NCBI GenBank assembly: GCA_902765215.1
Contig: CACWZA010000006.1
Coordinates: forward strand, 1 to 64,000
DNA length: 64,000 nucleotides
Source: an uncultured bacterium
GTDB lineage: Bacteria > Cyanobacteriota > Vampirovibrionia > Gastranaerophilales > Gastranaerophilaceae
Direction: 5' to 3'
Positions 1 to 49,457 of this stretch are shown here, piece by piece. Both the position numbers and the translations under genes were made by a program. Under the pieces are notes generated by a model. That model was given only the letters and a program-made list of their open reading frames with translations, was not told the origin of the DNA and did not search any database. How positions within the stretch are numbered: position 1 is the first letter of the stretch; each line of letters opens with the position of its first letter.

Positions 1-1161
1 AAGGTCTGTTTCTGCCTGTTGTTTTTGAGCAGTAACTGTTTCTAATTCTGCTACTTTATTATTGTAGTTTGTTAATGTTGTCTGATAATTGTTTTCTGCA
101 GTAGCACGATTTTTTTCAGTTTCTGCTAAATCAGCTTTAGTTTTTTCTAAATTTTGTGCAACTGTATCGTATTCTGCAGCCTTTCTTTCTTTTTCTGCTG
201 CCATTGCTGCTGCATCAGCTTCTTTTGCTGCTCTGGCATCAGCCTTGTCTTTTTTAAAATCATCAGAACGAACAGTTTCTGCACTGTCAAAGGTTACAAG
301 TTCACCATTTTCATCTAATGCTTTGATTTGGAAGTTTTTAACGATTTCACCTTTAGCGTTATAATAGTTTTTAATCGTTACAACGCTTTCTGTTGTTACA
401 CCTTCCTTTGTTCTGTCATTTTTGTCTAAATATGTAATCTTGAGGTCTTTCTTTACCTTTTCAAATTTTAATGCTTCAACATTTGAACTTGTGAACTGAA
501 GTGTGTCCACATCTTCAACATCATATATAGTATCCTTACCTGAACCATAGAATTTTCCGTTCAGTTCATAAGTACCAAAGATAAAGGTATCAGCGCCTTT
601 GCCGCCATAAATCTTGTCATTACCTGTACCTGCATCGATAATGTCATTACCGCCGCCGCCTTTGATTGTATCATTTTGAGTTGAACCTGAAATATTATCG
701 TTGAAAGCAGTACCGGTTGCTTTTTTCTTCTTAGCAACAATTTCCTGATCATAATCAATCAAACCCTGATCAAGAATTGCTACATACTGAACATCACCGT
801 CAGTTGCCAATTTAACATTCTTGATTGATGATGCTGTTGCTTTACCGTCAGCTTTTTTGAAATATTTTTCAATAGTTACTGTTTGTTTAACAGAACCATC
901 ATTATTGAGAAGGTCAATTTCTAAATTCTTTGTTCCTTCAACATGTTTGAATGTGATTTTACTTCTGTCTTGCAAATCAGTAACGGTATTGATACCTTCA
1001 AAACTGATAGCATCTGTACCTTTACTTGCTTTAACAAAAACAGGTTTATCCAAATCGGATGTTATTGTTATTAAATCATTTTTCTTCGTAGTTTGAGGAA
1101 ATAGTTTGTCTTCTACTTCTAAAAAATCCACCGCTGTAGGTTTGTATTCTTTTTTAGCCAT
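1..1161 (-). CDS. RTX-repeat calcium-binding protein, N-terminal part (runs off the window edge)
   Basis: The reading frame stays open for 387 codons from the ATG at 1161 to base 1, so only the N-terminal part is present. The start is fixed by an AAGGAG site 8 bases upstream. There is no Sec signal peptide, as expected for RTX proteins exported by type I systems through a C-terminal signal that would lie outside the window. Residues about 150-192 hold nonapeptide-like repeats (GGGGNDIIDAGTGNDKIYGG and flanking degenerate copies) that bind Ca2+ in this family. From about residue 303 the sequence becomes an Ala/Glu/Lys-rich coiled coil. Two AMIN-free, beta-rich stretches surround the repeats. 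No ABC exporter or membrane fusion protein is visible nearby. The RTX assignment rests on the repeats; the biological role (adhesin, surface layer, toxin) is unknown. A structured RNA candidate lies directly upstream. Confidence 0.8.
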   Translation of the reverse strand, partial: MAKKEYKPTAVDFLEVEDKLFPQTTKKNDLITITSDLDKPVFVKASKGTDAISFEGINTVTDLQDRSKITFKHVEGTKNLEIDLLNNDGSVKQTVTIEKYFKKADGKATASSIKNVKLATDGDVQYVAILDQGLIDYDQEIVAKKKKATGTAFNDNISGSTQNDTIKGGGGNDIIDAGTGNDKIYGGKGADTFIFGTYELNGKFYGSGKDTIYDVEDVDTLQFTSSNVEALKFEKVKKDLKITYLDKNDRTKEGVTTESVVTIKNYYNAKGEIVKNFQIKALDENGELVTFDSAETVRSDDFKKDKADARAAKEADAAAMAAEKERKAAEYDTVAQNLEKTKADLAETEKNRATAENNYQTTLTNYNNKVAELETVTAQKQQAETDL

Positions 1162-1720: not shown

Positions 1721-2476
1721 ATGTGGAAAAAGTTAAATTTTATCGCCGTTTTGGCTATCACAATGGCTTTAGCGCTTAGTATCACAGGTTATGCCTTTGC
1801 CATGACCTCTGCGCAGAGTGAATTTAACAGCAATATTGCGCCTGAAATAAAGTCTTTCACTGGTGGCGATAAGAGTTTCACCAAACTATACAACAAATAT
1901 GAAGAAGCAATCTTTAAACTAAACGACCTCGACCGCGAGCAGATAAACCCGAAGGACGAATATTACAAAAACAACTGGATACAGGTACTGCCCGCAGAAG
2001 GCGAGTATTACTATGCACTCAACTACAAACACCTCGCAAACGAGTATAAGAACCGGATTTCACGGGAATATTACCTCTGGCTGATGTTCCTTGAAAAGAA
2101 TCAGAGAACGGTCGAAGATGGCGGCCTGATGGTTAACCCCGACAAAATTCGTGAGTACCTGATTTTTACGGAAGAATTTATGAAAAAATATCCCGACTTT
2201 GTCCTTATTGAAGATGTGGAGCTCGAGCAAATCGGCTTCAGGTCTATATATCTTTTCGGGATAGAGAACACCCCCGTGTTTGATATTGCAAACGGGAACA
2301 GAATGAACCCTGATTACAAGAAATCATACGAAAAGTTTTTGAAAAAGAACAAAACCTCAAAGTTCTATCCGGAGGTTAAAAAGTTCTATAATAAGGCAAA
2401 AGAGAACAATTTCGTCCGCGACGACAATTTTGAAAAATGGCACTACAAAACCTTCAACGACAAGTATTTTAAATAG
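1721..2476 (+). CDS. Orphan secreted protein, 251 aa
   Basis: The protein opens with a clear Sec signal peptide (MWKK, hydrophobic stretch to about residue 25, GYAFA cleavage region) and is then hydrophilic, charged and rich in Tyr, Lys and Asn. TTAGGAG sits 7 bases before the ATG. I recognise no domain. The codon choice differs from its neighbours: runs of GC-ending codons (for example AACGACCTCGACCGCGAGCAG around 1921) stand out in an otherwise AT-rich region. Its stop codon overlaps the first base pairs of a 98-bp repeat that recurs beside tRNA-Gly, so the gene may be cargo of something inserted at that tRNA. It is probably periplasmic or extracellular; the function is unknown. Confidence 0.7.
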   Translation: MWKKLNFIAVLAITMALALSITGYAFAMTSAQSEFNSNIAPEIKSFTGGDKSFTKLYNKYEEAIFKLNDLDREQINPKDEYYKNNWIQVLPAEGEYYYALNYKHLANEYKNRISREYYLWLMFLEKNQRTVEDGGLMVNPDKIREYLIFTEEFMKKYPDFVLIEDVELEQIGFRSIYLFGIENTPVFDIANGNRMNPDYKKSYEKFLKKNKTSKFYPEVKKFYNKAKENNFVRDDNFEKWHYKTFNDKYFK

Positions 2477-2572
2477 CAAATAGATGGAGCGACCTTGGTC
2501 GCGAGTTTGAGCCTTAATAAACTAAAAAAGGAACCCTTTAAGGTTCCTTTTTTAAAATGGAGCGGGAGACGA
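2475..2572. repeat. 98-bp direct repeat, distal copy (tRNA-Gly 3' end plus terminator)
   Basis: This segment matches 3014-3111 at a constant offset of 539 bases with about two mismatches. It contains GGAGCGACCTTGGTCGCGAG, a terminator-like hairpin (AAGGAACC..GGTTCCTT with A and T flanks) and ends in TGGAGCGGGAGACGA, the reverse complement of a tRNA-Gly 3' end including CCA. The rest of the tRNA is missing here, so this is a partial duplication. Confidence 0.9.
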
Positions 2573-2575
2573 CTG

Positions 2576-2669
2576 CGCCTCGCATTAAACGGCACCGTTC
2601 ACAATAAAATCCAAAAGCGCGGTTTTGGATTATAATTGTTCACCTCTCACTTCGTTCGTGCCTCTGCTC
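2576..2669 (-). repeat. Dispersed hairpin repeat, family A, copy 1
   Basis: Read on the minus strand it contains CCGAGCAGAGG, GAACAAT, then a 9-bp stem AATCCAAAA/TTTTGGATT around the loop CCGCGC, ATTGT, the palindrome-like CGGTGCCG and TGCGAGG. The same order of elements occurs on the plus strand at 11725-11828 with compensating base changes in the stem. It is a non-coding structured repeat of unknown function. Confidence 0.7.
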
Positions 2670-2771
2670 GGCTTGCTCGAACTCCTGTCGTTCTCGCCTG
2701 TCGCTGCAAAATAAAAAGCAGATAAGAAAATTATCTGCTTTTTATGGAGCGAAGGACTCCGTTGACGAACA

Positions 2772-2796
2772 GCAAAACAATTAAGTATTGTTTTGC
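2772..2796. repeat. Covarying TAAGT-loop hairpin (family B), copy 1
   Basis: GCAAAACAAT and ATTGTTTTGC form a 10-bp perfect stem around the loop TAAGT, with an outer GTTGAC/GTCAAC pair. Related hairpins with different but still complementary stems lie at 2950-2978, 49124-49148 and 49247-49274. Confidence 0.75.
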
Positions 2797-2949
2797 GTCA
2801 ACAAAGAAGTAGACCGCATATTTATGGGATGAGTCAATGGAGGGAAGAGGCGTAGCCGAGTCTTCTCCGATGCATAAAAAAAAGACCTTTAACAGGTCTT
2901 TTTTTTTAATGGAGCGGGAGACAAGGCTCACTGTGTCTGTTTGCGAACA

Positions 2950-2978
2950 GCAAAAGGTGACTAAATGTCACATTTTGC
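2950..2978. repeat. Covarying TAAGT-loop hairpin (family B), copy 2 (loop TAAAT)
   Basis: GCAAAA-GTGAC pairs with GTCAC-TTTTGC, with one G/A mismatch, around the loop TAAAT. The stem differs from copy 1 yet keeps pairing. Confidence 0.7.
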
Positions 2979-3013
2979 GTGGAGTGGAAACATAGTTTAT
3001 AATTGTATGAATG

Positions 3014-3111
3014 AGCAAATAGAGGGAGCGACCTTGGTCGCGAGTTTGAGCCTTTATAAACTAAAAAAGGAACCCTTTAAGGTTCCTTTTTTAAAATGGA
3101 GCGGGAGACGA
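3014..3111. repeat. 98-bp direct repeat, copy adjoining tRNA-Gly
   Basis: This is the partner of 2475-2572. Here the TGGAGCGGGAGACGA end is the true 3' end of the tRNA-Gly gene. The near identity over the whole segment points to a recent duplication or conversion. Confidence 0.9.
3064..3092 (-). terminator. Terminator of tRNA-Gly
   Basis: AAAAAAGGAACC and GGTTCCTTTTTT form a strong stem with T runs on either strand, starting four bases past the encoded CCA. Confidence 0.85.
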
Positions 3112-3171
3112 GGCTCGAACTCGCGACATCCTCCTTGGCAAGGAGGCATTCTACCACTGAATTACCCCCGC
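3097..3171 (-). tRNA. tRNA-Gly (anticodon GCC)
   Basis: The minus strand reads GCGGGGG (acceptor), a D arm, an anticodon stem CTCC/GGAG around TTGCCAA (anticodon GCC), a T arm with GTTCGAG, the acceptor 3' strand CTCCCGC, a T discriminator and an encoded CCA. All four stems form. It is intact although its 3' end has partial copies next door. Confidence 0.95.
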
Positions 3172-49001: not shown

Positions 49002-49123
49002 TAAAACAGTAATTATTGAAGATTATTTTAATTAGCAAACATTCTATTTTGGTTAACACCATTTTAATTTTCTAAAAACATACAACAAAGCCCCCAAATG
49101 GTGCCGCGTCTCACTCTGCCGCA

Positions 49124-49148
49124 GCAAAACGATTAAGTATCGTTTTGC
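49124..49148. repeat. Covarying TAAGT-loop hairpin (family B), copy 3
   Basis: GCAAAACGAT and ATCGTTTTGC around the loop TAAGT. Compared with copy 1, an A-T pair is replaced by G-C. Confidence 0.75.
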
Positions 49149-49246
49149 GAGAGGGCGAGGCTTGACCTCGCTCCGAGACAAGTGCTCATTCTTTTGCAAT
49201 AAATTGCAAAAGAATGGTGCCGCGTCTCAAGGACTCCGTTTGCGTA

Positions 49247-49274
49247 CTCAAAATGATTAAGTATCATTTTTGAG
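49247..49274. repeat. Covarying TAAGT-loop hairpin (family B), copy 4
   Basis: CTCAAAATGAT and ATCATTTTTGAG, with one bulged T, around the loop TAAGT. Outer pairs differ from copies 1 and 3 but remain complementary. Confidence 0.7.
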
Positions 49275-49380
49275 AGGAATACATTATAACCATAAGACTG
49301 ACAGAATAAGCAAATGGAGGGTATGGCGAAGCCATACTTCCGAGACAAGAGCTCGTTTTTTATTCTTTCAGAATAAAAAA

Positions 49381-49457
49381 TGGTGCCGCGTCTCGGAATC
49401 GAACCAAGGACACAGGGATTTTCAGTCCCTTGCTCTACCAACTGAGCTAACGCGGCA
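49381..49457 (-). tRNA. tRNA-Phe (anticodon GAA)
   Basis: TGCCGCG pairs with CGCGGCA, the anticodon stem AGGGA/TCCCT encloses CTGAAAA (GAA), the T arm has GGTTCGATTCC, and CCA is encoded. The gene is intact; its 3' end has two partial copies downstream. Confidence 0.95.

Follow-up and report, generated by a model that had tools for sequence, protein, structure and literature searches.

Arrays of the tRNA-linked repeat type with folded cores at tRNA genes of a Gastranaerophilales genome

The window, a stretch of 64,000 nucleotides of contig CACWZA010000006.1 from an uncultured bacterium of the family Gastranaerophilaceae, contains an intact tRNA-Gly(GCC) gene on the minus strand (3097..3171; ARAGORN; Rfam tRNA model, 63.5 bits), which heads an array of partial copies of its own 3' end; all features of this array are on the same strand. 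The terminal sequence GTCTCCCGCTCCA is found, as the initial annotation had claimed, not only in the gene itself (3097-3109) but also, exactly, at 2910-2922 and 2558-2570, and each full copy has its own terminator, a hairpin with a T-run (3063..3092, directly 3' of the tRNA; 2876..2906; and 2524..2553, which is of the same type as the one at tRNA-Gly). The near-identical 98-bp segment described there is likewise real, with 98% identity, and is part of a longer direct repeat of 111 bp (2462-2572 versus 3001-3111, 93%). Of the two weaker tRNA traces that had been proposed, the one at 2745 is a tRNA end, though only seven nucleotides of it (CGCTCCA), whereas the one at 2838 had to be rejected as tRNA, since it belongs to a core element, of which it forms the left stem (CCTCCATTGAC). 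At the edge of the window (1-1160, minus strand), a large protein is encoded that appears, by eye, to combine glycine/aspartate-rich calcium-binding-like repeats with a coiled-coil-like region.

The Gly array consists of three units and the truncated head of a fourth. Unit 1 starts with the T-arm of the same tRNA in inverted orientation (GGCTCAAACTCGCGACC, 3036..3052; 94% identity, supported by the test of tRNA specificity given below), which overlaps a hairpin, GCGACC-AA-GGTCGC (3028..3041), and continues with a B-type core (2923..3025) that has the stem CTATTTGC...GCAAACAG and an inner hairpin at 2950-2978, to end in an exact copy of the tRNA 3' end (2910..2922; 19/20 identity over 2910-2929). 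The core of this unit recurs at tRNA-Asp, Lys, Tyr, Phe, Arg and Ser, and the fold of the unit is a junction with the closing helix AAGGCTCA/TGAGCCTT, far more stable than shuffled sequences (z=-4.7). Unit 2 is made of another B-type core (2752..2843; stem CTCCATTGAC/GTCAACGGAG, core hairpin GCAAAACAATACTTAATTGTTTTGC at 2772-2796), the residual tRNA end at 2745..2751 and the fourth terminator hairpin of the array (2713..2743). In unit 3, a hairpin GGCGAGAAC...GAGTTCGAGC (2675..2698) that contains the 5' half of the T-stem, and the closing bases of which are complementary to the tRNA's own t59-63, precedes a C-type core (2571..2674) and the second exact 3' end copy (2558..2570); the stability of the fold of this unit is not unusual compared with shuffles (z=-0.4). 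The truncated head of the fourth unit (2470..2513) retains the inverted T-arm (2497-2513), the hairpin (2489-2502) and the beginning of the B stem. The copies keep 13-20 nt of the tRNA 3' end, except for unit 2 with its seven. A second array in the window, which is absent from the initial annotation (49030-49456, minus strand), is associated with tRNA-Phe (49381..49456) and comprises two units between 49099 and 49380, one with a B-type core (49229..49321) followed by a 3' end copy at 49215-49228, and the other with a short hairpin element, B' (49113..49154), followed by a copy at 49099-49112.

The Gly array exemplifies a pattern that extends over the whole genome and is not special to tRNA-Gly, a point absent from the initial annotation, as are the conserved cores, the inverted tRNA arms and the mirror arrays at tRNA 5' ends described below. 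For the 39 distinct tRNAs of the genome to which the window belongs, all detected by ARAGORN in the fetched loci, copies of the tRNA's own last 12 nt were sought with at most one mismatch within 900 bp downstream, and the tails of other isotypes served as the control. At least one such copy is present at 18 of the 39 tRNAs, compared with 6 of 1418 wrong-isotype comparisons; in another genome of the same genus (G001), the respective numbers are 11/38 and 2/1344. Chance is excluded by the excess of own-tail 12-mers over those of other isotypes, and an assembly artefact is unlikely because the units are not identical to one another and were also found in genomes assembled independently. The usual spacing of the own-tail copies is 105-230 bp.

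The typical unit, from the tRNA outward, consists of a terminator, the inverted 3' end of the same tRNA, a hairpin, a structured core, the tRNA segment from t59 to CCA and, again, a terminator. The hairpin has the form GAGAAC...GTTCGA, its right arm being the 5' strand of the T-stem together with the T-loop; the GAGAA..GTTCGA motif was identified in 21 of the 44 units, and the remainder are mostly B-type with other arms. The inverted piece matches its own tRNA specifically, with a median of 5.6% of the other isotypes scoring equally well (p=4e-4). The closing helix is tRNA-specific as well: in 67 of 105 cases, the five bases preceding GAGAA pair with the tRNA's own t59-63, against 47.6 +/- 3.5 after permutation, a count that was reached by none of 2000 permutations. 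The units at tRNA-Ser, Pro and Thr include near-identical ones.

Arrays also form at the opposite end of tRNA genes. Copies of the first 12 nt of a tRNA were detected upstream of 4 of the 39 tRNAs in the window's genome (control, 3/1418) and of 6 of the 38 in G001 (control, 2/1344). In these mirror units, a segment that includes the promoter and the 5' part of the tRNA is interrupted by B' in reverse-complement orientation, within the D-arm at tRNA-Pro and tRNA-Lys, and beside the anticodon stem at tRNA-Ile; the respective arrays are located upstream of tRNA-Pro(cgg) (L087), Ile(gat) (L088) and Lys(ctt) (L014), and those of G001 at loci L340 and L345. A separate observation at a tRNA 5' side is a match to the whalefall-1 RNA upstream of tRNA-His (L037, 1355-1426, minus strand), which at 34.4 bits is below the gathering threshold of 37.

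The cores fall into several types. Core A is ~120 bp long (GCGGATTTGC...GCAAATCCAAGACA), and the alignment of 33 copies yields a consensus three-way junction in which 13 of the 29 base pairs show double compensatory changes; the sequence varies at the tips and the fold is conserved. A covariance model detected this core in 36 of 98 Vampirovibrionia genomes, nearly all from one family, in 1-36 copies and with a patchy distribution. At tRNAs, the junction is exact, TTCGA^core^N59, directly after A58 in the T-loop of a T-arm copy and with no target duplication; without exception, the 26 copies located near a tRNA are 3' of it and in the same orientation. In some genomes, core A is also found away from tRNAs, in other, unrelated dispersed palindromes, so that tRNA targeting is not absolute. 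A scan of species genomes for a conserved core produced more than 112 places, and all named records were metagenome-assembled genomes (MAGs) of Candidatus Gastranaerophilales/Melainabacteria.

The stem of the B core exists in several versions that compensate one another (TTTGC/GCAAA, TTGGC/GCCAA, TTCAC/GTGAA and TTGAC/GTCAA, with the offset read by eye). The short hairpin B' (CCTCTC-hairpin-CGGCAGAGT) is present in 41 of 98 relatives, with a reversed-pattern control near zero. The window's own genome carries 20 copies of the B/B' hairpin, 15 of these no more than 600 bp from a tRNA, one where the tRNA-Lys array breaks off, three in a single other palindrome and one orphan; the examined copies in relatives are mostly associated with tRNA 5' ends. 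The dispersed palindrome with three B' copies (L308, L309 and L311) reads CTCCCC..CCA^B'^CCAACTCGGGGAG and is followed by conserved sequence. The insertion points of B and B' differ within an arm, with ~5 nt often replaced, which is not what a clean site-specific reaction would produce, and in one tRNA-Met 3' array B' takes the place of the anticodon loop. A test of whether hairpin loops are the general target of insertion gave no significant result (p=0.2). The cores can be nested, with B' inside a hairpin of core A and core A inside a C core (L172 and L159). The Rfam search detected no family matching the cores, and a search of plasmids, performed with core A only, gave no match. A phage origin of the cores was considered and rejected, given that no exact core match was found in viral contigs; the phage records match the tRNA alone.

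Comparison of related genomes shows that the arrays are not static. The 3' arrays at tRNA-Phe, Glu, Gly(GCC) and Asp in the window's genome are absent in G001, and those at Arg(TCT) and Leu(TAG) in G001 have no counterpart in the window's genome, where the contig with Arg(TCT) ends 28 nt past the tRNA. That these two congeneric genomes differ in which tRNAs carry arrays implies that units have been gained and lost. Alignment of filled and empty tRNA-Met loci reveals an insertion of ~245 bp, with t58-76 and the terminator duplicated. The Gly array is missing in three genomes of the same genus, and tRNA-Gly(GCC) of other genera carries no, one or two units; thus, an identical array in all relatives, the outcome that the initial annotation had named as refuting, did not occur. 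No empty site syntenic to the window's Gly array was detected; the flanking gene was found in G005 alone, where the contig stops short of the array. In the genome G028 (L061), a CRISPR-like array (repeat GTTTTGATTTACTAATAATTTAAAATATATTATAAT) directly follows the terminator of tRNA-Gly. Units of mixed descent were detected too: the last unit of a tRNA-Met array ends in the 3' end of tRNA-Asp and is thus chimeric (L353, approximately C27:15010-15062), and two tail copies of the Leu array have a base (CGTCGACA) that is seen in the tRNA-Leu of other species. The chimeric Met end and the foreign-like Leu tails are consistent with exchange between arrays and between genomes.

Some intervals between tRNA ends are much longer than the typical unit and contain genes. 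Ends of tRNA-Leu(gag) occur at ten places over 26 kb (L210/L211, G000:C33:18500-44700), with genes in the intervals of 2-18 kb and a repeated right-end motif (GTTGGGTTCCAAAATAGTAACC) adjoining the tRNA-Leu tails. At tRNA-Met (L353, G000:C27:14330-26540), a cluster of 11.6 kb with AdhE-like, Rex-like, Fe-hydrogenase and Fe-ADH genes is bordered by the tRNA-Met array on one side and, on the other, by a distal tRNA-Met 3' end with half a core and the same terminator. HipA-like genes (identified by eye) of two other MAGs end at a core A, within a tRNA-Met end and a tRNA-Ile end, respectively. These gene-bearing intervals may be cassettes, or else islands that inserted into an array. Neither the tRNA-Leu intervals nor the 11.6-kb tRNA-Met cluster revealed an integrase.

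The search for an enzyme that could move the cores yielded no dedicated recombinase or other candidate. The statement of the initial annotation that no integrase is visible in the window holds for the Gly array, which encodes none; elsewhere in the genome, there are four tyrosine recombinases, apparently two Xer and two of the phage (integrase) type. One of the two integrase-type genes adjoins tRNA-Val(tac) and the other is near a tRNA-Met, and both of these tRNAs are without an array. The RAYT/Y1 transposase seemed promising as the mover, with Y1 genes adjoining core A in G041 and G044, yet 20 Y1 loci are flanked by GTAG-type REPs, and the classical RAYT transposases look unrelated to the cores. 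The RAYT-like Y1 transposases of the Gastranaerophilales (L258-L277) have flanking GTAG-type REPs of the form GTAGGTCAGGC../GTAGGGTGCGATGTTTCGCACC.

Tandem repeats linked to tRNA genes (TLRs) have been known in Escherichia coli since 1978 and, to our knowledge, have remained without an explanation since then. Like the arrays described here, TLRs are located 3' of a tRNA, terminate with an exact copy of its last nucleotides and are arranged in tandem with a period of 105-230 bp. Cotranscription with the tRNA, within its precursor, is a further trait of TLRs. The E. coli set consists of 22 sequences at ten loci, each identical in its last 18-19 bp to the end of the tRNA or rRNA that precedes it (PMC8144298). 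TLRs in general have no known function, although the E. coli RNAs RrA, RrB and RrF are transcribed, bind Hfq and bind CsrA in vitro, and rrB sits between two terminators (PMC8144298). For the comparison, the tyrT-tyrV locus (RtT RNA, Rfam RF00391) and the arg cluster of E. coli were analyzed. The similarity extends to the internal anatomy of the units, namely, the inverted tRNA end (GGGGAAGGATGAGAA..), the GGTTCGA half of the T-arm, the core and the segment ATCC-acceptor-CCA. The tyrT repeats read GGGGAAGGATGAGAAGCTTCGACCAAGGTTCGA-core-ATCCTTCCCCCACCACCA, with the core ending just 5' of ATCC and, as in the Gastranaerophilales, with a central TC-to-GA change in the inverted end and with the half T-arm; the motif GGATGAGAA...GGTTCGA is common to both, whereas the core sequences differ. 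The arg and tyr repeats of E. coli have in common a core-like stretch (AACGTTGC..GCAACGGCCCGAAGGGCGA..GAGTAATCC), and the folds of the Gastranaerophilales Tyr unit and of the E. coli repeats are alike in the closing helix and the first hairpin. The RF00391 model recognizes four E. coli copies (133-138 bits) but, even at E<=10, none of the Gastranaerophilales units. Unlike the E. coli TLRs, those described here affect about half of the tRNAs, have cores that are dispersed and patchy between species, include mirror 5' arrays and, at tRNAs, have a terminator ahead of each unit. Judging by this anatomy, the arrays are of the TLR kind, with new cores and a far greater spread.

Several other systems resemble these arrays in part. 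Integrative elements and islands at tRNAs similarly involve partial tRNA copies, regeneration of the gene and the 3' end as a border, but the units analyzed here are 0.1-0.25 kb in size, lack an integrase, have common structured cores inside the T-loop copy and occur at both gene ends. Integron cassette arrays also consist of tandem units with a folded conserved site at the unit end and a fixed orientation; in contrast, the platform here is a tRNA arm, most of the units are geneless, and neither IntI nor an attC core was seen. REP elements, which RAYT (Y1) transposases move, occur in these genomes too and are likewise short, structured and non-autonomous, but it is GTAG-type REPs, and not the cores, that flank the RAYT genes. 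The Rickettsia palindromic elements and MITE-like repeats are folded, dispersed sequences of 100-150 bp that can insert in RNA genes (PMC2229807), whereas the insertions described here are in copies of tRNA arms rebuilt outside an intact gene.

The best reading of the arrays is that they represent a proliferating, mobile family of the TLR type, and the Gly array itself probably arose as very small non-autonomous units were gained, one after another, at the tRNA end. The cores would enter copies of tRNA arms site-specifically, at the T-, D- or anticodon loop, and each event would leave an intact gene together with a spare 3' end and terminator or, at the other end of the gene, a spare promoter and 5' end; the tRNA would remain functional because the intact gene persists beside the spare end after each event. 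Recombination between the repeated ends could further make the arrays grow, shrink and swap units. Against this reading count the failure to find an enzyme, the copies of core A away from tRNAs, the varying insertion points of B and B', the non-significant test of hairpin loops as a target and the failure to detect a syntenic empty site for the Gly array. The suggestion of successive insertions of very small non-autonomous elements in the initial annotation is partly supported, considering the empty and filled tRNAs within the genus, the cores common to many tRNAs and the ~245-bp insertion at tRNA-Met with its duplicated end and terminator, but no integrase could be linked to the units. Chance, artefact and plain duplication do not suffice to account for the arrays. 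A model in which the tRNA end alone was multiplied, by tandem duplication or replication slippage, would fit long direct repeats (the 111-bp pair, for instance) and the near-identical units at tRNA-Ser, Pro and Thr, but it brings in neither cores common to other tRNAs and genomes nor precise core junctions; as a complete explanation, it is highly improbable and is contradicted for most units, but duplication probably contributes to the growth of arrays.

A possible, if rather doubtful, alternative is that the units are integron-like cassettes, with the folded core as the recombination site, the tRNA arm as the platform, a recombinase that inserts units at the T-loop, optional cargo and the newest unit nearest to the tRNA. 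The fixed orientation and exact T-loop junction of the cores, the folded core with variable tips, the T-stem half contained in the hairpin and the cargo intervals between tRNA ends or cores (2-18 kb at tRNA-Leu, 11.6 kb at tRNA-Met and the HipA-like genes) all fit cassettes, but the occurrence of core A in unrelated palindromes, the nesting of cores, the varying positions of B and B' and the failure to identify a dedicated recombinase do not. It seems unlikely that the units are integrase-mediated mini-islands along the lines of the initial annotation, each a deleted remnant of an integrative element that attached at the tRNA 3' end: independent remnants should not have common, covarying cores at one T-loop position, inverted arms of the same tRNA and 5' arrays are not expected from them, and both integrase loci are without an array, even though integrative elements do use tRNA ends in this genome, with integrases near tRNA-Val and tRNA-Met, right-end motifs GTTGGGTTCCAAAATAGTAACC lie beside the tRNA-Leu tails, and partial tRNA copies are commonly generated through integration (PMC9897764). 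No less improbable is a primarily functional origin, whereby read-through transcripts are kept as small RNAs or as signals for processing of the tRNA 3' end. The stable fold of Gly unit 1, the compensatory changes in the cores and the precedent of RrA, RrB and RrF in E. coli (PMC8144298) speak for RNA-level function, and the fast gain and loss of units, the differing cores at one tRNA, the unremarkable fold of unit 3, the terminator before each unit and the general lack of a known function of TLRs (PMC8144298) speak against it.

The presence in E. coli of the same anatomy, GGATGAGAA..GGTTCGA..core..ATCC, suggests a general mechanism, and from the sequence comparison we infer that one mechanism may be common to all TLRs. 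More tentatively, the TLRs of phyla as distant as those of E. coli and the Gastranaerophilales could comprise one class of tRNA-parasitic mini-elements, in which a folded core is delivered into an arm loop by some recombination system, the end is rebuilt each time from tRNA-templated sequence, and a gene cluster is occasionally carried as cargo. The Gastranaerophilales make the origin of TLRs testable through the comparison of filled and empty sites, given that about half of the tRNAs are affected, close relatives differ and the cores are identifiable. If units do carry cargo, there would be gene capture at tRNAs that integrase-based island finders miss, and if the mini-element scenario is true, tRNA genes would serve, at the 3' as well as the 5' end, as platforms comparable to integrons.
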